Shown piece after piece: positions 3,579-49,661 of a stretch of DNA of 53,203 nt. Position 1 is the stretch's first letter; each line of letters opens with the position of its first letter. A model generated the notes under the pieces. It was not told the DNA's origin. It saw nothing but the letters and a program-made list of their open reading frames with translations, and searched no databases. Made by a program: the position numbers and the translations under genes. Origin of the DNA: a virus; IMG/VR virus record IMGVR_UViG_3300038360_000257, positions 1 through 53,203 of that record; one strand, 5' to 3'.

Positions 3579-5363
3579 ATGATCGTGCTCGACATCGAAG
3601 TTTACAAAGACTATTTTCTCCTGGCGATGAAACAAATGGGTGGGACAAGAGTTGAGTTTTTTGAACTGTACGAAGGCCATGTTCCACGATACCAGGACAT
3701 ACTCAAAATAATGCTCAACCATACCACGGTCAGCTTCAATGGCATATCCTACGATCTTCCGTTGATCAAGGCCATGACCGAGGGCATGGACAACGAGACC
3801 CTCAAATCAATATCAGATGAAATCATCACATCAGACCTTCCATCCTGGACCGTCTGCAAGACCAACAACATAATCGTTCCCAAGGAGTGGGACCACATCG
3901 ATATAATAGCGGTCGCTCCGGGGATCGCATCTTTAAAGGTGTACGGCGGGAGGATCAGGGCGCCTAAAATGCAGGACCTGCCCATTGAACCCAGTGCCAG
4001 CATAGCCCCTTCCCAACACGAGCTGATGCGCCAATACTGCGTAAACGATCTCGAAACAACGGAACTCTTATATGACACGCTCACACCACAGATCGAGCTG
4101 CGTGAGTCCATGTCCGACCAATACGCCATTGATCTAAGGTCGAAATCAGACCCGCAGATTGCAGAGGCGGTTATTAAAAAGGAACTCACTGCCAAAACAG
4201 GGCGCCAGTATTACAAACCGGTGTTTGATGAGAATCTGACCATCCGCTACGACAACCCCGGCATCGTAAAATTCAACAGTCCTGCCCTTAACGAAATATT
4301 CCAGGCCGTGCTCGCCCATGAGTTCAAGGTCAAGACGAACGGGCAGTTGGTAGTCCCGGCCGTACTCAACAAGGCCAAGGTGCTTATCGACGGTAGGCAG
4401 TACAAAATGGGCGTGGGTGGATTGCACTCCATGGAAAAGAACCAGTTCGTATGGAGCCAGAGCATTCTTGGCGGTGTGCTCTGTGAGTGGGATGTCGCGT
4501 CATATTACCCGTCGATCATTATGCAGCAGGAATTGAGTCCGGATAATCTCGGAGAGGAATTCTTGAAGGTCTACCAGGACATGCTGACCCGGCGCCTGGA
4601 AGCGAAGGGTTCGGGCGACAAGGTTACGGCCGGCACACTTAAAATTTGCCTTAACGGTTCGTTTGGCAAGCTCGGCTCCCGCTACTCCGCCCTCTACGCC
4701 CCGCAGCTTTTGTTGCAGACCACGTTAACCGGGCAGTTCTGCCTTCTCATGCTCATTGAACGCATGGTGGATGCCGGGGTCAGGGTTGTCTCGGCCAACA
4801 CGGATGGCATAGTGTGCGCTACCAGTAAGCGGGAGGCCCATGTGATGGCCATGGTGGCTGAGAACTGGATGAGGTACACCACCTTTGATCTGGAGCGCAC
4901 TGACTATGAGCTGATCGCTGCTCGGGATGTCAATTCGTATTTTGCGGTCAAAGCGGACGGTAAGGTGAAAAGGAAAGGGATTTTTAACGTGGACAATCTG
5001 ATGAAGAACCCGAATCGAAATATCGTCTACACGGCCGTAATTGACTACATAAACGAGGGTGTGGGGATAGCGGATACTATCGAGGGGTGTAAGGACATTC
5101 ATCAATTTGTCACGGTCAGGAAGGTCACTGGAGGAGCATTGTGGGGCGGGATAGACCTCGGGAAGTCCATCCGGTACTACTCCTCTGTGAGTGCTGCTGA
5201 TGTCGATCCTTATATAAGGTATAAGCTGAACGGAAACAAGGTGCCCAAGTCCGACGGGTGCAGACCACTGATGGAAATGGGTGGTTTGCCGTCTGATGTG
5301 GATTACTGGGCGTATGTTCGAGACGCTGAAAAACTCTTGGGAGAGGTGGGGTATTATGCTTGA
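3579..5363 (+). CDS. family-B DNA polymerase with 3'-5' exonuclease
   Basis: The N-terminal proofreading domain shows Exo I (D5, E7 in LDIEVY), Exo II (N54, Y58, D59 in FNGISYDL) and Exo III (Y153, D157 in YCVNDLE). The polymerase domain has motif A (D305 in WDVASYYPSII), motif B (K355 and N359 in LKICLNGSFG) and motif C (ANTDGIV, D409). Motif C reads NTD rather than the usual DTD; the second, catalytic Asp is kept. At 594 aa it is short for family B but normal for phage enzymes. It replicates the phage genome with the helicase and VapE proteins downstream. The VRR-NUC start overlaps its end by 8 nt. Confidence 0.88.
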   Translation: MIVLDIEVYKDYFLLAMKQMGGTRVEFFELYEGHVPRYQDILKIMLNHTTVSFNGISYDLPLIKAMTEGMDNETLKSISDEIITSDLPSWTVCKTNNIIVPKEWDHIDIIAVAPGIASLKVYGGRIRAPKMQDLPIEPSASIAPSQHELMRQYCVNDLETTELLYDTLTPQIELRESMSDQYAIDLRSKSDPQIAEAVIKKELTAKTGRQYYKPVFDENLTIRYDNPGIVKFNSPALNEIFQAVLAHEFKVKTNGQLVVPAVLNKAKVLIDGRQYKMGVGGLHSMEKNQFVWSQSILGGVLCEWDVASYYPSIIMQQELSPDNLGEEFLKVYQDMLTRRLEAKGSGDKVTAGTLKICLNGSFGKLGSRYSALYAPQLLLQTTLTGQFCLLMLIERMVDAGVRVVSANTDGIVCATSKREAHVMAMVAENWMRYTTFDLERTDYELIAARDVNSYFAVKADGKVKRKGIFNVDNLMKNPNRNIVYTAVIDYINEGVGIADTIEGCKDIHQFVTVRKVTGGALWGGIDLGKSIRYYSSVSAADVDPYIRYKLNGNKVPKSDGCRPLMEMGGLPSDVDYWAYVRDAEKLLGEVGYYA

Positions 5364-5625
5364 AAAAGAAATCGAAAAGGCACTGGTCAAGAAGGTAAAG
5401 GCGCTTGGTGGGATTTGTGAAAAATTCACTTCACCTCAAAAGAGGTCAGTGCCGGATAGAATTTGCCTGCTCCCAGGCGGACGTGTGATCTGGGTTGAAC
5501 TCAAGGCGCCGGGCAAACGGCCGACCAACAACCAGCGTCGGGATCACCTGAAGCGTCGTATGTTGGGTGCGGATGTGCGGGTCATTGACTCATTTGAAAT
5601 GATAGACGGATTTCCTAATGAATAG
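5356..5625 (+). CDS. VRR-NUC domain nuclease
   Basis: ATG 5356 has a GAGAGGTGGGG site and overlaps the polymerase stop; an upstream in-frame GTG at 5281 lies deep in the polymerase gene. The 89-aa product is a stand-alone VRR-NUC domain. It has the helical start, the conserved SVPDRICLL motif (catalytic Asp of PD) and WVELKAPG (Glu and Lys of ExK), then the NNQRRDH helix. The family acts as a Holliday-junction or flap nuclease. It is regularly found next to SNF2 helicases in phages, as here (8-nt overlap). Confidence 0.88.
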   Translation: MLEKEIEKALVKKVKALGGICEKFTSPQKRSVPDRICLLPGGRVIWVELKAPGKRPTNNQRRDHLKRRMLGADVRVIDSFEMIDGFPNE

Positions 5626-22429: not shown

Positions 22430-23668
22430 ATGGCATATCCAGTTGCAGCGGGAGTAACCACGCATAGTGGAACTTACACCCCGGAAATATGGTCAGGCAA
22501 ATGCTTGGTCAAGTTCTACAAAAGCACTGTATTCGGCGCGATTGCTAATACAGATTATGAGGGTAAGTAACATTGCTCTCACTAAACACAGTGAATTGCT
22601 GGGACACCCCAAAGCCTGATGTTGCTACAACGTGGCCGGTAACGGCGGGCGTGACAGCTCAAAAAATACTCAGGATGAAACAACGGGCAATCAGCAGCCA
22701 AGCCTCCAGGAAACTGGTGGAAGGTTCAGAGATTAGGGAAAGTAATCTAAGTCGTAAAGATATGAAGAAATCCCCACGAGCGCTGTGCTTCCCTGAATAT
22801 AAACAGGGAATGAAGATATAATCCGGTCTGTATGGAAACATGCAGGAGCCTCAGATAAAGAACTGAGGACGTAAACAAAACGGAACTGAAATCCAAGGGG
22901 GACACTGTCCAGATCCGGACCATCCCCGACATCACGATCAATGACTATGTGATTGATCAGAACCTGACCTACGAACGTCCGACCCCTGGAATCGTTGATC
23001 TGCTCATTGACAAAGGCAAGTATTACGCCATGAGCATCAACGATGTTGAGAAACTCCAGTCGGATTTGCCGTATGTTGATAAATGGACGACTGATGCGGG
23101 CCAACAGCTTGCCATCGCCATTGACAGCGATATTCTGTCGAATGTTTATTCCAATGCTGCTGCCGCCAATCAGGGAATCACGGCTGGCGCGGACAGTGGT
23201 GACATTGACCTCGGCGCGACGGGTGCTCCCGAAGCCGTTGATAAAACCAACATCCTGGATTACATCGTGGATATGGGAACGGTTCTTGACGAACAGAGCG
23301 TTCCTGATAATGCCAGATGGGTTGTGTTTCCCCCGATTTTCTGCGGCATGATCAAAATGAGTGATCTGAAGGACGCGAGTCTGGCCGGGGATGGGACCAG
23401 TATTCTCCGTAACGGCCGGGTTGGGATGATTGATACTTTCGAGATTTACAAATCTCGTCAGATTGATACCACAGTTGATGGGGCGGATACCGTCCACAAC
23501 ATCATCGCCGGTCATCCTTCCGCAATCACCTTTGCGAGTCAGTTGACCAAAACCGAAACCCTGAAGAACCCGAATGACTTTGGGGACCTGATGAGAGGTC
23601 TTCAGGTTTATGGTTACGAAGTGATCAAACCGGAAGCATTGGTTTGGTTTTATGCCAAGAAAGCGTAA
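22430..23668 (+). CDS. major capsid protein, split by a group I intron (join 22430-22564, 22883-23668)
   Basis: Exon 1 (45 codons) starts at ATG 22430 after GAGGAG and reads MAYPVAAGVTTHSGTYTPEI to ANTDYEG. Exon 2 (261 codons) begins ELKSKGDTVQIRTIPDIT and continues through DLLIDKGKYYAMSINDVEKL to FYAKKA. Joined, they give a 306-aa HK97-fold-type coat protein. NTDYEG followed by ExKxxGDTVxIR is the usual run of this family, which fixes the junction. Without splicing the message reads Lys-stop right after exon 1. The scaffold gene lies upstream and a decoration-like gene downstream. Annotating only the open frame from 22949 would miss 67 N-terminal residues. Confidence 0.85.
22565..22882 (+). 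ncRNA. group I self-splicing intron (IA-like), no ORF
   Basis: Conserved sequences: R GTTCAGAGATTA (22724-22735) and S AAGATATAATCC (22813-22824), which form P7 (GATTA/TAATC). Against the common GACTA/TAGTC this is a compensatory pair. P1 is exon GAGGGT (22559-22564) with GCTCTC (22575-22580), ending in the required U-G pair. P3 is CACAG (22587) with CTGTG (22783). P4 is GCTG (22598) with CAGC (near 22695). P6 has CCAG-GAAA-CTGG (22706-22717). P8 is TTCCCTG/CAGGGAA (22789/22804). P9 is a GAAA-capped hairpin at 22828-22845, followed by CCTCAG/CTGAGG (22849-22868). The terminal G is 22882. Extra sequence between P7 and P3 suggests the IA subgroup with P7.1/P7.2. No homing endonuclease is encoded. 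Confidence 0.9.
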
Positions 23669-23680
23669 AGGAGGAATGAC

Positions 23681-24124
23681 ATGGGAACCTATGATTATGC
23701 GATAGGGAATACTACGCCAAAGTGGGATGACCACGGAGGGTTGATCAGGATTCAGCAGGTTATGAACTCTGCGGCCATCATCGCGTCAAATGCGACGCTT
23801 ACTGCTGCGGCACAGATTACCGCAAATGACATCATCCAATGTATCAACGTGCCTGCGGGCTTTGTTATTCTGAGCGTTGGCATAAATGTTACCACGGCGG
23901 GGACTGCTGGCAGCACCATTGACATTGGCCTTGCGGGTGGCAGCGAGGTTGTTGCTGCCAAGGATGTTGTGACAACCGGTTATTCCGTTATTGAGAAGGA
24001 CGCAACCTGGGGTTGGGACAACACCTCAAAGTTGTTTACTGCGGCTGATACCATTGATGTGCAGTACCTTCAGACTGAAACGGTCGGCCAGTTCACTCTT
24101 ACGGTGGTTGGTTATCAACTGTAA
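23681..24124 (+). CDS. putative capsid decoration/stabilisation protein
   Basis: ATG 23681 follows AAAGGAGG, 10 nt after the capsid gene. The 147-aa product is beta-rich with Gly, Ala and Thr (VPAGFVILSVGINVTTAGTA... TIDIGLAGGSEVVAAKDVV), as in trimeric head-stabilising proteins encoded next to coat genes in many phages. No catalytic motifs. The assignment rests on context and composition. Confidence 0.65.
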   Translation: MGTYDYAIGNTTPKWDDHGGLIRIQQVMNSAAIIASNATLTAAAQITANDIIQCINVPAGFVILSVGINVTTAGTAGSTIDIGLAGGSEVVAAKDVVTTGYSVIEKDATWGWDNTSKLFTAADTIDVQYLQTETVGQFTLTVVGYQL

Positions 24125-39805: not shown

Positions 39806-40026
39806 TGGAACGAATAGACACCCTGCGCTGGGGGGAGATCCCAGAGTTGGGGAGCCCGAGCCTTTCCTGGCCGATATACGGCCGGGTAGGTGTTCACCTC
39901 AGATCGGGCGGAGGGACACACGGCTCAGATGGCGGTTACTGGCCGGGATTCAAGACTGACACAGGGTTAAGGCGTGAGGATGACGAGATCATTTTGATAC
40001 TCAGCGCGATATTAAAGGAACTCTAA
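39805..40026 (+). CDS. hypothetical 73-aa protein
   Basis: The start and stop each overlap a neighbour in TAATG form, tying it to the giant gene downstream. The sequence is Gly/Trp-rich (MERIDTLRWGEIPELGSPSL... SDGGYWPGFKTDTG) with a C-terminal helix (DDEIILILSAILKEL). No family recognised. Confidence 0.6.
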   Translation: MERIDTLRWGEIPELGSPSLSWPIYGRVGVHLRSGGGTHGSDGGYWPGFKTDTGLRREDDEIILILSAILKEL

Positions 40027-43000
40027 TGGCGAAATCTCTAGTTGAGTGCTTTAAGCTACACGGAAAAGGGTTAAACGCTGCTGAAATGCAGGCCGTTACC
40101 GATATGGCAAACGCCATTCAAAAGGATGGCACATACAAGGATAAGGCCCCGGAGTACCCGAACGTCGTTGCTGTGACATCGCACATTGAAGAACTCCAAG
40201 CTGACCGGGATAGTATCTTAACTCAGCTTGGGGTTGCTATTCCCGCTGGAAAGAAGGCAGCACCTGTAAAGGCTGAAGCAGATACGATTGTTGAAGTTAA
40301 GCCGACTGAAAAACCCGCTCCAAAACCACGCACTGATACCTTTTTCACGCCTGAATTCGCAGAGCGGAATATCCCGAAACTCGAAGCAAAGCTGGAAGAA
40401 GTCCACAAGGCTCTTTGGGATTCGGAGGCGTTTGCTGATAGTGACTTCTATGACGGGAGTTTTCCCATACCGAAAAAGGGCGGAATCATTGCCACCAAGG
40501 GCTCTAAGAAATACAAAACGGATAAGGCGTATCGGACCAAGGTTGACTCTGCCGTAAAGAACATCACCGACACCATGGTGGACGCGAACAAGAAGCGCAT
40601 GATCCTCATTGGTCAACCCAGGGGCGGGGCCTTCGGTGTCGATTACTCCGTAACGAAGAAACGCAAAAAGGTCCGTGCCAAATACACCGTGGACGTGATC
40701 CGGGCTTGGAACAACGAGGCCCGGACAAAATATCCAAACACTGACTACCTCGGGGATATTGCGGTTAGAGAAGGGTTACAGAATAGCCTTGATGCCGTAT
40801 TGGACGCAATCGCCGCGAAGCAAATAAAAAAAGGAGACATAAACATAAGCGCCAATGCTACCAGCTACACCTTGACAGATAACGGGATCGGGATGTCGGA
40901 CACAGATATCGCCGAGAAGTTTCTGGCGCTTCATGGGACGGGAAAAGACAAGGAAGGTCGTTTCGGTGGTTTCGGTATCGCCAAGGCCGTCATCCTTGGG
41001 CCGTCAGATAGTGCCACATGGACAATGGAAACCCGTGACAATCTCTTTACCCATGAAATGGCTTCCAACAATGATGTTGTGGGAGCGTTGGATAAACCCC
41101 GCCAGGGAACTCAGATCCATGTAGAAACACAAGATGGTATTATTGGTGTGGAAGCGAAAAAATATGTCGAAACCACGGAAACCCCTAAAAATATTTCAAT
41201 CACGTTTAACGGGGAGAAGGTTAAGAGCCCGTTCGGAAAACGTAAAGCCAAGACCTTTGCAGGAACCATTGGGGATAAATCGTCATACGATATAAAATAT
41301 TACCCCAACGCCCCCGAGGGGTACGAGAATAAACTTGTCATACGGTTGGTGGATAAAAAGACCGGGGCAAAGCTGACACAAGCCATCGTCCATATTTATA
41401 ATGAGAACTTTAACGGGACCCTGGTTCAAGACATAACAACCTCAGCCGCTCCCAGCGAACACGCGTACCCTTTGACGGATTCGAGAATGGGATTGAAATG
41501 GGACGGGCGGGCAGAGGTTGATAAAATCGTAGGGGAATTCGCCGTTGACAAACAATCTGTTGCGAGATCCACGATAGAGACCAACCTGTATGGCGTGTAT
41601 GAAAGACCCGAGTGGAAAAAAACATTACGAAAAGTTAAGACGGATAAAGGTTATCAAAACTTAACCCAAACCATAAATGACATCTGGGAGGAAACTGGAA
41701 AATTCTTCGGCCACCGGCATTACGCTCCGTTCACGGCTCTGGACGATATGGACATACTGGTTGACATTGGTTACAAGGGTTCACGGGGTGGTAGTCTTTT
41801 CCAGGCAAAACATGTAGCAGCATATGAAGCCGTTGCCAGGTTGATGGCAAAAGATGCTGGAGCACTTGTTGGTGAGTTCAGCCTTATGCTTTCAAAACCC
41901 GTCAATGGGGGCATTGTCGAGTCACAATACCAAGCGGCTACCGGAAACCTGTGGATAAACCACTTATCAATTGACAAGACGAGTCTCAAGAGCCCTGTGT
42001 CGTATGCCCAATACTTGAAGGGTCTTGTAGACCATGAGCTTACGCATTTTTGGCGCGGGCCTCACGATGAGGATTTCAGTTCTGCCAGGGAATCCACGCA
42101 ACGAAGAACCGCTGAAATGTGGCCTTATATTTTAAGGATCGCCGAAGCGACGCTTGGCAAACAAGATAAATCGACAACGAGAACGAAAACCAAAACTGTC
42201 GTAAAAGAGAAAATAGTTGAAAAGACAGTAGAAGTGGATAAAATAATAGAGAGGTATCTTGACCCTCAGCAACTGGAATTCAACTTTGACAATTTTGAAA
42301 AGGAGGCTGTAGATGGGCAAATCGAGCTCTACTTACCAGAACCTAAAGGAGGTCCACGGCAAGGGAGGCTATTCGGACGAGCAGTGGACCGAAGCGATTC
42401 TGGACAGCATCGTAAGGGACGCCCTGATGGAGATCGGCGCGGCGCCAAACAGTCCGATACACAAGGCACTGCTGAAGGTGTCACGACAGACGTGGGAGAT
42501 GGCAAAGGAAGAGATGGCAAAACCTTCCTAGCGAAAGCGAGCATCGATTCTGAAGGGAATCTGCACACCAATAAAGAAGGAGACGGTGTCTTTTTTGTCG
42601 GCGCCGATATGGTTGACGTAGACTTTGAAGGCAATCGCTCACCCGAAGGTGTGAGGTATCCTGAAGTTCATTCCGCGTGGACGGTTGGTGAAAATATAGC
42701 CATCGCCATCGAAAAGAAATCGAAAGAAACTTTCAAGACAATTGCCGTCGTAGCTTATCCGCAAGTTCTCCAATCCATGCAGGTCAATCCCATTTTCCAC
42801 GCGGCGCTCATTCGAGCCTTATCCGCTTCTTACGGAAAGAAATACGCCAAGAAAATGGGGAGACAGGCGAAAGCCGCATACGCCAAGAATAAAGCCGAAT
42901 ACAAGAAAGCCCAACGACTGTACCTGCGGGAAGTAAAAAAAGGAAACAAGCCCAAGAAACCCATCCTGACAAGTTTTGCCCAACAGGTAATGCGGCTGCA

Positions 43001-46000
43001 ACCCACTAAAGCTGAAGCGAAGGCTCTCCAGAAAAATAAGATTATCCCCAAAAAGGCCACCCTTGAGCGGGTGTACATGCAGAAGGTGGCTGAAGATATC
43101 GCCGTGCGTGACCACGTTGAAATCGCCGGGAAAATCGTTGGGGTCGGGCGATACAAAAGTCGTGAAGATGTTTCGGACGCTGATATTTACGACAGCAAGA
43201 TCCTGTTCGAGAGTTACCACAAGTTTGATGAGCCGGTGTCATTCAGCGATCTTGTTAAACAACTCAAAACCATGAAAGGTGGCAAGGTAGAAGCGACAGA
43301 TAAGCGCAAAATAGGTGCCTGGCTGATGATGCGGAGCGGTGCCTTTTGGTTAAACAAACGAGACAGCCCCGTTATCCCGGCAATGGTTGAAATAGGCAAG
43401 GGCGGACCATCGGTGCTCAAATCTCTAACGGACACCGGAGAAATAGCGGACTTAAAAGATGTCACTGAAGACGCCCGAACGGTTGTGCATTACGCCAATG
43501 GGGTCTACACTTTTCTGGTTCCCGCAGAAGATATTAAGGATATCAATTCTTACACCACTGATGATTTCGTCGCACGAAGGGACGCAGGAACAAAAAAGAC
43601 CCCAGCTCAGTTTTGGACCGGGGCCTACGATACCGGCGGTGTCCGGAAAGAAGAGGTTGTAACGGGTACGCCTCACGCCACAAAGATCCAAGAAAATAAA
43701 ATTTACGACAGCACAAAAGATGCTCTTGGATATCGTGAAAAAGCCAGAAAATGGATCGCCAACGATCCTGGATTTTATGACACAAGCGTAGGGGGTAACA
43801 CCCTTAAAGATATGCGAGCCCGCAAGGGGAAGAAGCCGATAACCAAAGCTGCGGTTGATAACGCAATGGCGTTACTTCTGAAGCGAGATAAATACAAAGG
43901 CTTCTCGTACACACAGACCAACGGAAAATGGTTTGCTCTGTTTGGTAAAATACCCGCCAAAGCCGCAACCAGCGTCAAGGCCAGAATGTCCGCTGTGGTG
44001 GGTGAGGTAGAATCCCCAGGTACGGACATAGACAAAGTCGCGGCCATGGGCCATGCACGAGCAACCTTGTTGAAAACGGCTTTAGATGATCTGGCAAAGA
44101 AATATCCGGAACTGACAGTCAGGATCGAAGCAGCAAAAGTCAGCCTCGCCTCGTTCGATGCGGCAACGGAAGGCCAGGTGGAGTACGGTATTGATGTCGA
44201 TATCGCAGGCCCGATGGACGGCATCCGGGCGTTCTTGAGCGAGGGGGTTGGTTTATCCAACGACCAGCTCGGTGTGATCATAGAAAGCTCTCCGGAAGAC
44301 GCAATAAAGAACGGCGTTTCAAAAGCGGATTCCAAAAACGCCTTGACATTTAACGTCCCCATTGATAGAAAATATACAAGAGCTGACGTTCGTGACGCCA
44401 TAAAGCAGTACGGCCTCAAGAATTACAACATCCTCGAAAGCTCGACGACCGGCGCCGTAAGCATCAATATGTCCGTGGACCTGGTCAAAAAAGCCGACGG
44501 CGGATGGGTTGCCAATAAAGATCGAACGGAAGCCATCTGGGCGTTAAACGAGATATTCAAAGAAATTGGCGGAAACGGCACACTTGATATTAATGAGGTG
44601 TACTCTGAAGTTCTTGGCGACAGCAACTATAGCTCATTAAAAACCGCTCGTAAGAATTATCGTGAACACATTGAAGAATATCACGGTAAAACAAGAGGGG
44701 GCAAAATTTATGAAAAAGCAGTCGAAGCAGGAAAGACCCGAACAAACGACATCAGATCAGTCGGGCCGGAGACCTTTTACAAGGGACGACTGGCCGAAAT
44801 CTCTCCAAGACAGCCTTCCCCCGGAACTGCTGGCGGACTTGGAAAAACACGCGATGCACGCACCGATGGAGCCAGGGACCGCAAGGGCCAGGATAACGAT
44901 AAAGGACCCGGTGTAACCCTATCCATGAGTCTTGGGGGAGAAAACCCCACTCGATGGAATCCCAAAGAATTAAAACGCATAACCCAAAATATAAAGAAAC
45001 GTGTTTTACAGATCCTTCCGGAAAGTGAAGTCGATCGAGTAAAGCTCGTCCTCACCACAGCCGTTAATCTCTCCGGAAAGAATGCCAGAAAATCAAAAGA
45101 AGACTGGCAACGGATTGACCCTAAGCTGACAGACGTCACCGGTTCCGCGTCCGTCAATCTGCACGAATCAACCATCCAAGTCGCTTTAAATTTCGATAAA
45201 CCTACCATTGACAGAACCGCTCTGCATGAGCCCTTCCATGTTGTCATGGAGAATTACCTCCCCAAACGAGACTACGATTTCCTTTTAAAGAAATACGGAA
45301 ACGCGGAAACTGCCGTAGAGACGGGAGTCGATTACTTCATTGGCAAAGGTACACCCACAGGTAGAGCCAAAAGAATATTCGATTACCTGAAGCGGCTTCT
45401 CGCCTCTGTCCGGAACGGCCTCAAAGGGTTGGGGTTCACCAGCGAGAACCAAATCTTTGAAAAGGTCTGGCGTAAAGGTTATGAGAAACGCCAGTCCGAA
45501 GCTACCAGGGCCGAGAGGTTGGGCATTGAGCTTGAGAAGATTAACGAGTTTGCCCAACCTGCTGAAACGCGGTTGAGCAAAGCCATCAAGAAGATCACCG
45601 ACAACCCGGCGTTCAATAAGTGGTTCGGCAAGTCCAAGGTGGTGGATGAGAAGGGTGAGCCGTTGGTGGTTTATCATGGGACGAGATCTCAAGAAATCAC
45701 AGAATTTAATGAATCAAAATCGAGAGGCGGTGGTTTTTGGTTTACCCCTTCAAAACGATACGCCAAACAGTACACTCATGGAAATGGATCAATAGTTGAA
45801 GTGTACCTAAAAATTGAAAACCCATTAAATTTAGATTCTAAGGCAGGTTCTGCCATATCCAAAAACTTGCACAAACGTGCTGTTGAAAACGGGTCTTCTT
45901 GGGAGGAGGAGGCTATAAAAGATGGATATGACGGGTCTTTAATATTCGGTGGATTTAAAAAAGGCGGTGAAATCAAAGTCTTCAACCCCACCCAAATAAA

Positions 46001-49000
46001 ATCCATATACAACCAGGGGACGTTCTCACAAACAAGCCCCAACATCATGCTCTCCATGTCCGAGCGTCGAGCCGAAGAAGCAGGCGGGGAAGAGTACGCC
46101 ACCAACATAGGCAAGGCCATGAGTCTGCCCGACATCGTGTGGCTTGCCAAAGAGCTGATGGGTGGAAAGTACCCGGATGTCGTGAAGGGGATTGCCAGCA
46201 GAAAAGGCAAGAGCCTCGGCAATTTCACCAGGACGAGGAACGGAAGAATAAAGATCCTTGCGTCTCTTTTCAAGAACCCGCTGGAAGCCTCAAAGGTTCT
46301 GGCCCATGAGATAGGTCATTTGTCCGACTGGCTTCCTAATAAAGACATGGGTAGGGGGAATATCTTTGGGCGAATTGCCACCCTTCATAACTATTTCAAG
46401 CGGACACTTCCGAAAGGCCCGAATGAAATCGGGGAACTGTCAGACGCCGATAGGGTCAGGCTGAGAGCGGAAGCCAAAAAGGTTCTCAGCGGTGAGAAAA
46501 CCATTGATGAGGAAATCATAACTGAAACCCCAGTTACCCCGGCCCAGGTTCTTTCGATCTGGAATTCAGTTGAGAACGGTATCAGCGAAGAACTGCTTGA
46601 TTATGTTAAGCGTCTGGATGCGGCAGAGAAAAAGTCGATCATCAAAGAGGCCATGAAGGGTCAGGTTCCTGCCGAATTGCGCCGGTTCGCCACTATCGTC
46701 AAGATCAAGACCGGGAAGAAAATCAAGATCAAGCTCACTCCCTCGGAAGATCAGATCAAAACCAAGTACGAGGATCTGATCAAGGAAGAGATCAAGAAAC
46801 GCAAGCTGTTCACTTTGTCTGAAGTGATGGACGAGCTGAAAGCGTTCTCCCGCCTGTGGAGCCCGTTCGACCCTGCGGCTGACCCTGCGTACACCAAGTA
46901 CCGTTACTCGTCCAAAGAGCTTTACGCCGATGCCTTCAGTGCCATCATCATGGCGCCCAACTACGCCGAAGAGCAGATCCCTACATTCGTTGAAGGGTTC
47001 TTCAATTACCTGGAACGCAAGCCTGAATTAAAGAAGATGTACGATACGATCCAGGATCAGATTAAGCATCATGGGTCCCTTGAGGCTCTTGACAAAAGGG
47101 TTGGGGAAGGGATGAAGCGTGGGAGTGACGATTGGGTCAGCCAGGTAAGGAACCTAAAAAAGAAATTGTTCTCGAAAGAATTGTGGGGGAACACGTTCCT
47201 GGGCAGAGACTTTTCGTTATTGATGCGGGTAAAAAAGGCTCGTAATCGATCTCCCATCCTGCACGATCCGTTCAATAAGTCCATGGACCCGACGAACGCC
47301 ATTGACGATATGCGGTACACCACAACGGAAGTCAACGGTTATATCAAAGATATGTTCGCCAAGGTGGTTAAGGGATATGAAGCTATTGGAATGAACGATA
47401 TCGATTTCAGTAAATACCTGCTTTACAGAAGGATCGTAGGGGAAAAGACAGAGAAGCAGGCGTGGTCCGAAGGCGTTACAAAGAAAGAGGCCGCAGTCCT
47501 TAAAGCTCAATACGAAGAACGCTTTGGCCCCAAGCTGAAAGAGATCGCTGGCAACTTTTCTAAAGTGCGAAAAGAATGGGTTCTGGATAAGCTGAAAGCC
47601 AATAGCAAATACGCCACGGCCGATCTCGTTAAGTACATCGAAGACAATCTTGATTCATACGCCACGATCGATATCTACGATCACATGAACGAAAAGACAG
47701 GCGTGAGCTCCTCCGCCGGACTGTTCTCAACCCCCTTAAAGACAAGAGTCGGCTCACTTAAATCAACTCGGCCTGTGTTTTCAGCGACCCTTGAAAATGA
47801 CATGGCGATAATCAATGCGGTTAATAAATCTATCGCCGCGAGATCCGTTGCTGATTTCATGACAGAGTACGATCCTGATTCCATCAAGGACGCCACAACC
47901 ACATGGGATGGCAAGAAGCGCGTCATCAACCCGCCGTCAGATCGAGACATGGGGCTTATCGTTTACATGGACAACGGAAAGATGGTCGGCAAGTACGTCC
48001 CGAAGTACGTTGCTGAGTTCTTCCACGCCAACCCGGTGCAAAGCCAGTTACTGACACAAATATTCAGGTGGACGGCAACACCTTTTAAAGCGATCTTTAC
48101 CGGAAGGAACCCAGGTTTCTGGCCGTTCAATATGATCCGCGATTACCATAGAGCGGCGAGGACACTGCCAGGTAAGGGAACTTATCTGTCATTTTCAAAA
48201 TATTGGGTGAAGAATGTTAAAAAGGCCGCTAAGTCGGCATTCGATAAAGAAATGACCGACGCAGAACGGCAGATGCTGCATGATAAATCCCTGCTGTCAG
48301 TTATGAATTACCAGGGGGATGAAAGCCACGACGCCATGACCGAGCGGATTTTGTCAAGGCACGGACTCATTGAACCGAAGCACAATAATCCCATCTTCAA
48401 AGGCGTTAGGAAGTTTTTCCATGTTCTGGACGCACTCGGGATGACGTCCGAGCGGGTAACAAAATTCGCAGCAAACGAGTACCTTGAAACCAACTTCCCT
48501 GAGATGTCTCAGCAGGAACGAGCGTTCATTATAAGAAGGACGGGCTCACCGTCTTTTCTGACCCAGGGAACGGCCACCCCTTTGCTCAACAACATCCTGA
48601 TTTTCAGTAACCCAATGATCCAGGGCTATCGTGAAGACATTAACTTTGCCAAGGACAGACCCATTGAAACGCTGTTCAAGATCGGGGCCATCGTCATGCT
48701 GCCAAAGATGCTGATGATGGCGGCTGCTTCCGGATTGTTTGGCGACGATTGGGAAGAGGCTTACGCCAGGATCAGTGAATACGATAAATCGAACTACCTC
48801 TGCATTCCTTTCGGGATTACACCGAACGGCAAGGTTGCGTATCTGCGGCTACCCCAGGATGAAATGTCGAGAGTTATTGGCGGAACATTATGGAAAATGT
48901 TTTCCTCTGAGAAAAAAAGATATTTGCAGAACCTTGAAGATTACATGGGTGGCCAGGTCCCGAGCTTGTCACCGGTATGGGACATACTTTCAGGGATAAG

Positions 49001-49661
49001 CAATTATCGTAATGGGCTTAACATATATACTCCATTTCGCGGCAACTTCGTATTCACAGACCAGCTTATGAGTGCGGCAAAAGGCACTGGGATAGGCTCT
49101 AAAGAGGCTAAGGCTAAAAAGTGGGAAGTAATGCGCGGCTGGATGTCGAACACCGTGGGCGGTGGGATCTTCTATCGTTTCAATTCAAACAATGTGGAAA
49201 CAGTTAAGACCACAACCGAGAAAGTTATCGGGTACCCGGTCCTGAGTAATATTGTTGGCAGGTTCATTAAGGTTTCGGATTATGGTAAACGAGAAGAATT
49301 AAGGAAGGACAAAAGTAAAATACGGTCGAATAACGACGCTGTCACGCTGCTGGCCTATGACGCGATAACCAAGGCGATGAATAACGAGCAGCCAAACAGA
49401 AACGAGATGATAGCTCTTGTGGTCAAATACAAGTCCCTCCCGAGGATGTGGAAAAAGCTCGTATCTCAAAAGTTTACGAACGTGTATGTCCAAGAAATTA
49501 TCAACGCCAAATCAAAAGAAGAAAAAACCGCAGTAGGAATAAGGATGCAGGAAGATAAGTTTTCGCGTAGAATGCTGGATGGGGGAGATAGGAAGGGAAT
49601 TAAATTTTTAAACGCACCAGATTTTTCTAATTGGGTTCGGCCAACGGAGGAAGGAAAATGA
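40026..49661 (+). CDS. giant polyvalent ejected protein (GHKL ATPase, metallopeptidases, ART, LPD-like C-terminus), 3211 aa
   Basis: Domains in order. A GHKL/HSP90-like ATPase has REGLQNSLDA (near 247-256), TDNGIGMS (D285) and GRFGGFGIAKA (near 310). A first zinc-peptidase-like HELTH lies at 670-674. Two unrecognised regions follow (about 840-1230 and 1260-1570). A second peptidase-like HEPFH is at 1734-1738. An ADP-ribosyltransferase-like module (VYHGTRS with H1884, then GFWFTPSKRYAKQY) is followed by LSMS. A third peptidase has HEIGH (2094-2098) with a later ELYAD glutamate near 2298. A long C-terminal part has hydrophobic segment IGAIVMLPKMLMMAAASGLF (about 2885-2905), like LPD38-type domains. 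This is the polyvalent protein plan: effectors probably injected with DNA against host defences. Confidence 0.82.
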   Translation: MAKSLVECFKLHGKGLNAAEMQAVTDMANAIQKDGTYKDKAPEYPNVVAVTSHIEELQADRDSILTQLGVAIPAGKKAAPVKAEADTIVEVKPTEKPAPKPRTDTFFTPEFAERNIPKLEAKLEEVHKALWDSEAFADSDFYDGSFPIPKKGGIIATKGSKKYKTDKAYRTKVDSAVKNITDTMVDANKKRMILIGQPRGGAFGVDYSVTKKRKKVRAKYTVDVIRAWNNEARTKYPNTDYLGDIAVREGLQNSLDAVLDAIAAKQIKKGDINISANATSYTLTDNGIGMSDTDIAEKFLALHGTGKDKEGRFGGFGIAKAVILGPSDSATWTMETRDNLFTHEMASNNDVVGALDKPRQGTQIHVETQDGIIGVEAKKYVETTETPKNISITFNGEKVKSPFGKRKAKTFAGTIGDKSSYDIKYYPNAPEGYENKLVIRLVDKKTGAKLTQAIVHIYNENFNGTLVQDITTSAAPSEHAYPLTDSRMGLKWDGRAEVDKIVGEFAVDKQSVARSTIETNLYGVYERPEWKKTLRKVKTDKGYQNLTQTINDIWEETGKFFGHRHYAPFTALDDMDILVDIGYKGSRGGSLFQAKHVAAYEAVARLMAKDAGALVGEFSLMLSKPVNGGIVESQYQAATGNLWINHLSIDKTSLKSPVSYAQYLKGLVDHELTHFWRGPHDEDFSSARESTQRRTAEMWPYILRIAEATLGKQDKSTTRTKTKTVVKEKIVEKTVEVDKIIERYLDPQQLEFNFDNFEKEAVDGQIELYLPEPKGGPRQGRLFGRAVDRSDSGQHRKGRPDGDRRGAKQSDTQGTAEGVTTDVGDGKGRDGKTFLAKASIDSEGNLHTNKEGDGVFFVGADMVDVDFEGNRSPEGVRYPEVHSAWTVGENIAIAIEKKSKETFKTIAVVAYPQVLQSMQVNPIFHAALIRALSASYGKKYAKKMGRQAKAAYAKNKAEYKKAQRLYLREVKKGNKPKKPILTSFAQQVMRLQPTKAEAKALQKNKIIPKKATLERVYMQKVAEDIAVRDHVEIAGKIVGVGRYKSREDVSDADIYDSKILFESYHKFDEPVSFSDLVKQLKTMKGGKVEATDKRKIGAWLMMRSGAFWLNKRDSPVIPAMVEIGKGGPSVLKSLTDTGEIADLKDVTEDARTVVHYANGVYTFLVPAEDIKDINSYTTDDFVARRDAGTKKTPAQFWTGAYDTGGVRKEEVVTGTPHATKIQENKIYDSTKDALGYREKARKWIANDPGFYDTSVGGNTLKDMRARKGKKPITKAAVDNAMALLLKRDKYKGFSYTQTNGKWFALFGKIPAKAATSVKARMSAVVGEVESPGTDIDKVAAMGHARATLLKTALDDLAKKYPELTVRIEAAKVSLASFDAATEGQVEYGIDVDIAGPMDGIRAFLSEGVGLSNDQLGVIIESSPEDAIKNGVSKADSKNALTFNVPIDRKYTRADVRDAIKQYGLKNYNILESSTTGAVSINMSVDLVKKADGGWVANKDRTEAIWALNEIFKEIGGNGTLDINEVYSEVLGDSNYSSLKTARKNYREHIEEYHGKTRGGKIYEKAVEAGKTRTNDIRSVGPETFYKGRLAEISPRQPSPGTAGGLGKTRDARTDGARDRKGQDNDKGPGVTLSMSLGGENPTRWNPKELKRITQNIKKRVLQILPESEVDRVKLVLTTAVNLSGKNARKSKEDWQRIDPKLTDVTGSASVNLHESTIQVALNFDKPTIDRTALHEPFHVVMENYLPKRDYDFLLKKYGNAETAVETGVDYFIGKGTPTGRAKRIFDYLKRLLASVRNGLKGLGFTSENQIFEKVWRKGYEKRQSEATRAERLGIELEKINEFAQPAETRLSKAIKKITDNPAFNKWFGKSKVVDEKGEPLVVYHGTRSQEITEFNESKSRGGGFWFTPSKRYAKQYTHGNGSIVEVYLKIENPLNLDSKAGSAISKNLHKRAVENGSSWEEEAIKDGYDGSLIFGGFKKGGEIKVFNPTQIKSIYNQGTFSQTSPNIMLSMSERRAEEAGGEEYATNIGKAMSLPDIVWLAKELMGGKYPDVVKGIASRKGKSLGNFTRTRNGRIKILASLFKNPLEASKVLAHEIGHLSDWLPNKDMGRGNIFGRIATLHNYFKRTLPKGPNEIGELSDADRVRLRAEAKKVLSGEKTIDEEIITETPVTPAQVLSIWNSVENGISEELLDYVKRLDAAEKKSIIKEAMKGQVPAELRRFATIVKIKTGKKIKIKLTPSEDQIKTKYEDLIKEEIKKRKLFTLSEVMDELKAFSRLWSPFDPAADPAYTKYRYSSKELYADAFSAIIMAPNYAEEQIPTFVEGFFNYLERKPELKKMYDTIQDQIKHHGSLEALDKRVGEGMKRGSDDWVSQVRNLKKKLFSKELWGNTFLGRDFSLLMRVKKARNRSPILHDPFNKSMDPTNAIDDMRYTTTEVNGYIKDMFAKVVKGYEAIGMNDIDFSKYLLYRRIVGEKTEKQAWSEGVTKKEAAVLKAQYEERFGPKLKEIAGNFSKVRKEWVLDKLKANSKYATADLVKYIEDNLDSYATIDIYDHMNEKTGVSSSAGLFSTPLKTRVGSLKSTRPVFSATLENDMAIINAVNKSIAARSVADFMTEYDPDSIKDATTTWDGKKRVINPPSDRDMGLIVYMDNGKMVGKYVPKYVAEFFHANPVQSQLLTQIFRWTATPFKAIFTGRNPGFWPFNMIRDYHRAARTLPGKGTYLSFSKYWVKNVKKAAKSAFDKEMTDAERQMLHDKSLLSVMNYQGDESHDAMTERILSRHGLIEPKHNNPIFKGVRKFFHVLDALGMTSERVTKFAANEYLETNFPEMSQQERAFIIRRTGSPSFLTQGTATPLLNNILIFSNPMIQGYREDINFAKDRPIETLFKIGAIVMLPKMLMMAAASGLFGDDWEEAYARISEYDKSNYLCIPFGITPNGKVAYLRLPQDEMSRVIGGTLWKMFSSEKKRYLQNLEDYMGGQVPSLSPVWDILSGISNYRNGLNIYTPFRGNFVFTDQLMSAAKGTGIGSKEAKAKKWEVMRGWMSNTVGGGIFYRFNSNNVETVKTTTEKVIGYPVLSNIVGRFIKVSDYGKREELRKDKSKIRSNNDAVTLLAYDAITKAMNNEQPNRNEMIALVVKYKSLPRMWKKLVSQKFTNVYVQEIINAKSKEEKTAVGIRMQEDKFSRRMLDGGDRKGIKFLNAPDFSNWVRPTEEGK
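42313..42531 (+). CDS. 72-aa gene overprinted inside the giant gene (frame +1)
   Basis: ATG 42313 has a strong AAAAGGAGG site (42298-42306) 6 nt upstream, and frame +1 carries a stop (TAG 42310) immediately before it, as between two operon genes. The product MGKSSSTYQNLKEVHGKGGY then DEQWTEAILDSIVRDALMEI looks folded and helical. By contrast, the giant protein's own frame here is a disordered Gly/Arg/Asp linker. It lies at a domain boundary of the giant protein. Probably expressed. Role unknown. Confidence 0.55.
   Translation: MGKSSSTYQNLKEVHGKGGYSDEQWTEAILDSIVRDALMEIGAAPNSPIHKALLKVSRQTWEMAKEEMAKPS
44710..44916 (+). CDS. 68-aa gene overprinted inside the giant gene (frame +1)
   Basis: ATG 44710 has GAGGGGG 8 nt upstream. 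The product MKKQSKQERPEQTTSDQSGR continues RPFTRDDWPKSLQDSLPPEL and LADLEKHAMHAPMEPGTARA, natural-looking protein sequence. The giant frame over the same bases is a Gly/Arg/Asp-rich linker (GGLGKTRDARTDGARDRKGQ). The frame is open to 44662 with further starts. It is the second such case and in the same +1 frame as 42313. An ATG at 44925 in the main frame could then restart the next module. Confidence 0.5.
   Translation: MKKQSKQERPEQTTSDQSGRRPFTRDDWPKSLQDSLPPELLADLEKHAMHAPMEPGTARARITIKDPV

Follow-up and report, generated by a model that had tools for sequence, protein, structure and literature searches.

Introns in the major capsid protein genes of phages have been described before. In the mycobacteriophage LittleE, splicing of a capsid-gene intron was proven by RT-PCR, and the lactococcal phage Tuc2009 is cited in the same paper among the precedents for such introns (Pope et al. 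2013, PMC3706429). The MCP genes of crAss-like Delta and Zeta phages also contain introns (PMC7886860). The terminase introns of Bastillevirinae are associated with phrog_559, a Vsr-type intron endonuclease family, and the word capsid is absent from the paper describing them (PMC11878797). The intron analysed here joins those of LittleE and the crAss-like phages as a further capsid-gene intron.

The window is the whole 53,203-base stretch of the IMG/VR virus record IMGVR_UViG_3300038360_000257. It has a tailed-phage gene order, with the small and large terminase subunits, an SU10-like portal, the capsid, an SU10-like adaptor, and an internal virion protein. The unspliced capsid reading frame from 22430 meets a stop after 46 codons, at intron nucleotides 4-6. 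When 22565-22882 is taken out, the exons are in frame and encode a 306-aa capsid protein. The original prediction had placed a group I intron at exactly these coordinates, and the 5′ junction, G22882, and the start of exon 2 all agree with it. The gene is divided as follows.

22430..22564, plus strand: exon 1 of the major capsid protein gene, 45 codons, ending in NTDYEG with a U at the splice site
22565..22882, plus strand: group I intron of 318 nt without an endonuclease gene, identified by RF00028, same-site introns, and covariation
22883..23668, plus strand: exon 2 of the major capsid protein gene, 261 codons plus stop, beginning with GAA CTG

The predicted joining of NTDYEG to ELKSKGDTV matches the uninterrupted homologues in an alignment. 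The spliced protein matches PF25209 with 35.2 bits (cut-off 27, E 2.1e-8) and the major head protein family phrog_267 with an E value of 1.7e-60. An AlphaFold model of an uninterrupted relative, L002, whose capsid protein is 90% identical to that of the window, was usable when built from 83 sequences (pLDDT 76.5) and useless when built from 11 (pLDDT 45). The usable model matches HK97-fold capsids, with phage Che8 as the best match (E 4.7e-19, TM 0.72/0.80). Judged from these matches, the spliced product is an HK97-fold major capsid protein, the fold being read from the modelled relative. The insertion point lies just ahead of strands 53-58 and 81-86 of the model, which would place it at the base of the E-loop. 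A 333-aa minus-strand frame at 22733-23734 matched nothing and was regarded as a chance frame. Elsewhere in the window, a 3211-aa ORF (40026-49661) contains an ART-PolyVal ADP-ribosyltransferase domain (E 1e-25) and is a polyvalent protein, and a small ORF between the DNA polymerase and helicase genes (5281-5625) has a weak, below-cut-off match to VRR_NUC nucleases (E 0.0045).

The RF00028 covariance model matches 22555-22845 along its full length (1-253) with 65.2 bits and E = 2.4e-14, above the gathering score of 50. No other Rfam match exceeds the threshold in the window, and the record has no second group I match. The secondary structure was drawn by hand from P1 to P9.1. All of the predicted helices (P1, P3, P4, P6, P7, P8, and P9) are present, and the drawn structure also accommodates P5, P7.1, P7.2, and P9.1. 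All lie on the plus strand.

22558-22564 (exon) / 22575-22581 (internal guide), plus strand: P1, with a U22564-G22575 wobble at the junction; 95% of cells paired
22587-22592 / 22782-22787, plus strand: P3, 100% paired in 17 sequences, two-sided changes in 5 of 6 pairs
22597-22601 / 22692-22696, plus strand: P4, from the drawn structure and pair counts (22596..22725 block)
22607-22609 / 22685-22687, plus strand: P5, from the drawn structure and pair counts
22697-22709 / 22714-22725, plus strand: P6 and P6a, with a GAAA loop on P6a
22731-22735 / 22819-22823, plus strand: P7, the guanosine-binding helix, 100% paired in 17 sequences, two-sided changes in 2 of 5 pairs
22736-22739 / 22771-22774, plus strand: P7.1, 97% paired, two-sided changes in 4 of 4 pairs
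22745-22748 / 22758-22761, plus strand: P7.2, present in the window and not alignable across the family (41% of cells)
22789..22810, plus strand: P8, a plain 7-bp hairpin, the site of the HNH gene in most long relatives
22828-22834 / 22839-22845, plus strand: P9, with a GAAA loop, 98% paired, two-sided changes
22849-22854 / 22863-22868, plus strand: P9.1, 79% paired, two-sided changes

The 5′ junction reads GAGGGU followed by AAGU and the intron ends with G22882, so that the expected U-G pair (U22564-G22575) and terminal G are both in place. The GNRA cap predicted for P9 is a GAAA loop, which is also found on P6a. The compensatory pair noticed in P7 is real; U-A replaces the common C-G, as it does in 4 of 17 related short introns. 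P10 is weak in the window, with 2 bp, and reaches 5-8 bp in several relatives. The presence of P7.1 and P7.2 between P7 and P3 is a mark of subgroup IA. The window intron probably belongs to this subgroup and may be IA2-like, an assignment based on its P7.1 and P7.2. An 82-aa open frame (22573-22821) runs across the ribozyme core and was regarded as chance, not as a gene. Inspection of the open frames within 22565-22882 revealed no endonuclease gene, as had been predicted.

The fold of the window intron stands well beyond chance, with a z value of -4.05. For covariation, 17 short introns from the same site were aligned and the pairs were counted against 500 shuffles. It was found that 87.9% of cells are paired (71.6% in shuffles), that 50 of 72 pairs have changed on both sides, and that 202 cells show two-sided changes (64.8 in shuffles). 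None of the 500 shuffles reached any observed value in any measure. The core pseudoknot is formed by P3 and P7, both of which are paired in all 17 introns and contain compensatory changes, and the U-G pair at the 5′ splice site is likewise present in 17 of 17. P8 and P7.2 cannot be aligned across the family, and their pair counts (41-58%) are uninformative either way.

Is the insert removed from the transcript? Close relatives provide both an empty and a filled allele. L002 has an empty site reading GAT TAC GAG GGC GAA CTG, while L003 has a 975-nt intron at a position identical to that of the window intron. The contigs of L002 and L003 share a sample number. The first 45 nt of the two introns match exactly and their 3′ parts are 78% identical. 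Between the exons of the window and L003, 22 of 135 nucleotides of exon 1 differ with only 1 of 45 residues changed, and 19 of these 22 differences are at third codon positions. Exon 2 differs at 124 of 783 nucleotides and 13 of 261 residues. In both exons, dN is about 0.035 and dS is above 1.1. This pattern argues that both exons are under purifying selection and that the split gene is alive. Selection of this kind implies that the capsid gene is expressed despite the insert. The simplest interpretation is that the insert is spliced out, and splicing of the window intron from the transcript is very likely. The intron is very probably self-splicing. A gene that is broken, or translated from an internal start near 22949 with the insert left in place, is scarcely credible; an open frame does run from a GTG at 22949, but the strong purifying selection on exon 1, the conservation of exon 1 residues in all homologues, and the intact ribozyme speak against it. 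Thus, the central claim of the original prediction, a group I intron in a capsid gene, is borne out by the covariance-model match, the empty site of L002, the compensatory changes in P3, P7, P7.1, P9, and other helices, and the purifying selection on the exons. In the proposed mechanism, the intron, which follows codon 45 of the major capsid gene, would fold in the transcript, guanosine bound in P7 would lead to a cut after U22564, and exon 1 would be joined to the exon 2 sequence following G22882 to give the 306-aa capsid protein.

I gathered further introns by a degenerate 5′-junction search of IMG/VR followed by capsid matching. At least 45 non-redundant introns, including that of the window, were found after the YEG codons at the same codon boundary. 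The window intron is one allele of a capsid-intron family at a conserved site. The host capsid proteins of the listed introns are 35-95% identical to references. The 3′ ends were fixed from the capsid alignment alone, and a terminal G is found in 45 of the 45 listed introns. Among the matches listed, 19 introns are short (250-497 nt) and 26 are long (848-1157 nt). All 26 listed long introns have a homing endonuclease gene, which in 25 cases belongs to one HNH family and lies in P8, 18 in the sense and 7 in the antisense orientation. One example of each orientation is given below.

L019:2337-2921, plus strand: HNH gene in P8 of a same-site intron
L091:3279-3869, minus strand: gene of the same HNH family in P8, in the opposite orientation to that of L019

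The remaining long intron is that of L003. It has an antisense gene of 215 aa in the P5 loop (L003:2074-2721, minus strand), which matches phrog_559 and phrog_9084. Because of these matches and the published description of phrog_559 (PMC11878797), the gene was classed as Vsr-type. A comparison of this gene with solved structures gave no meaningful match.

In a sample drawn without regard for introns, the site is occupied in about 5 of 80 distinct viral contigs and in none of 31 genome contigs, and thus the intron is a minority allele. No isolate phage record among the matches listed has a same-site intron, and isolate-phage DNA similarity covers at most 49% of the window intron. The capsid gene of Roseobacter phage CRP-207, suspected to be split from two tblastn pieces, is intact. 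No published account of this site family was found in the open-licence literature. The original prediction had called a capsid location uncommon. That remark has to be tempered in view of the LittleE and crAss-like precedents and of the at least 45 introns at exactly this position. The capsid location is less exceptional than first thought, and the surrounding site family is more interesting than the single window intron.

How did the window intron come to have no endonuclease? The short intron of L150 retains 54 HNH profile positions in P8 (iE 9.6e-18), and that of L162 retains a C-terminal HNH stretch (6.4e-5). Shorter HNH traces were recognized by eye in L167, L189, and L234. Deletion of the endonuclease gene is therefore a real source of short introns. 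In the window, P8 is a clean hairpin with no HNH remnant, as is P8 of L003, and for this reason loss in the window's own copy is rated as no more than likely. Overall, it is highly probable that the window intron is a group I intron of a capsid-site family that homes mostly with an HNH endonuclease, the window copy most likely being a derivative which lost its endonuclease. Points against this explanation are the lack of an HNH remnant in P8, the 2-bp P10, and the different endonuclease, elsewhere in the intron, of the nearest relative L003. It is possible, though rather unlikely, that the window intron has always been without its own endonuclease. It would then have reached the site, or keep it, through collaborative homing with an enzyme from another locus, or else through recombination with relatives that bear the intron. 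Phages are known to use collaborative homing (review PMC3984707), L003 indicates that an endonuclease gene can enter P5 separately, and the clean P8 of both introns is consistent with this history. It fits poorly with the HNH genes in most long same-site introns and the remnants in several short ones, and a search of window ORFs turned up no free-standing endonuclease, although the record may be incomplete. Among the options raised in the original prediction, a trans endonuclease found no candidate in those ORFs, and loss from an endonuclease-bearing ancestor is the best supported at the level of the family.

L162 and L222 have introns with 84% nucleotide identity and capsid proteins with only 40% identity. 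For some introns, then, the resemblance far exceeds that between the genes that host them, so these introns move horizontally. On a capsid tree of 143 tips, a quick tree in which introns are over-sampled, the intron is gained or lost at least 22 times. Intron identity tracks capsid identity to some extent (Mantel r 0.37, p 0.001). This correlation, together with the mismatch of L162 and L222, indicates that both descent and transfer occur. The intron tree (36 rows) has moderate support; trimming of the endonuclease failed for three introns, and L217 was left overlong. The family introns are presumably active in homing. Under the loss explanation, the family would have spread by homing at the conserved capsid site, mostly via the HNH gene in P8, and the window copy, having most likely lost its endonuclease, would now be passed on together with the capsid gene; with precise splicing, it would do next to no harm and hence be tolerated.

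Some capsid genes contain more than one intron. L224, L237, and L173 have a further intron of 254-320 nt upstream, whose end lies 9 nt from the main site. The mini-exon between the two introns is TAT/TAC GAG GGT, encoding Tyr-Glu-Gly. In L134, the piece between the introns is 13 nt.

L224:3053-3735: tandem introns in the capsid gene
L237:5110-6301: tandem introns in the capsid gene
L173:4935-6102: tandem introns in the capsid gene
L134:7389-8556: tandem introns in the capsid gene

Both introns exceed the Rfam threshold in L134 and L224, only the second in L237, and only the first in L173. The spliced products are open throughout. Skipping of the 9-nt mini-exon would keep the frame. L255, L266, L267, and L292 have the upstream intron alone (974-1016 nt), three codons before the main site. 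By its position, this second intron lineage targets the codon boundary 42/43. No account of 9-nt mini-exons between phage group I introns was found in the open-licence literature. Besides the main intron, the capsid genes of L163 and L239 have further breaks in exon 2, near residues 118 and 92. L004 (1928-3000; L005 is the same) has an insert near residue 27 with a LAGLIDADG gene, a U before it, and a G at its end. The L004 insert gave no Rfam group I match; the inserts of L004 and L005 are possibly divergent introns.

Phages make few proteins in larger amounts than the capsid protein, and thus an intron in its gene must splice very efficiently. The original prediction also suggested that the intron may gate capsid synthesis. 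That it is kept as a control element, with slow or condition-dependent splicing setting the timing or amount of capsid, seems very improbable. The capsid is a late and highly made product whose unspliced message would yield a 46-aa stub only, and a regulatory role has been raised as a hypothesis for phage introns (PMC11878797). Against this, most relatives have no intron, introns come and go between relatives as close as L002 and L003, and no regulatory sequence was identified. A broader form of the idea is equally far-fetched: the NTDYEG codons would be a dedicated intron niche in a large, mostly uncultivated phage group, where two lineages 9 nt apart and changing endonucleases compete, and where splicing, including mini-exon joining in some members, sets capsid timing or amount. 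The intron would then be more than a parasite, namely a control element that is retained.

A single codon boundary presents many states of the homing cycle: an empty site, introns with an endonuclease, introns that have lost it but keep remnants, one with a different endonuclease at another place in the intron, and a second intron in tandem. This allele series makes the gain-degeneration-loss model testable in phages. Gene callers will truncate such capsid genes in viral metagenomes.

The LittleE intron also interrupts a major capsid gene, is probably of group I, and has a U before it and a G at its end. In both systems some alleles carry a homing endonuclease gene (antisense in LittleE and L003) and close relatives are empty. 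However, the capsid family and the site differ, and the LittleE intron is about 820 nt with a LAGLIDADG-like gene, whereas that of the window is 318 nt without one. Spliced RNA was shown for LittleE. The crAss-like Delta and Zeta phages are likewise uncultivated and have group I introns in their MCP genes, several per gene within one genome. They belong to another phage order, and their introns were found via endonuclease domains, without an allele series at a single site. The IA introns of T4-like and Twort-like phages and Bastillevirinae probably share the P7.1/P7.2 core and have in common the HNH or Vsr-type genes in loops and the occurrence of endonuclease-free forms (PMC3984707; PMC11878797), but they sit in polymerase, reductase, terminase, and other genes, unlike the capsid-site introns described here.
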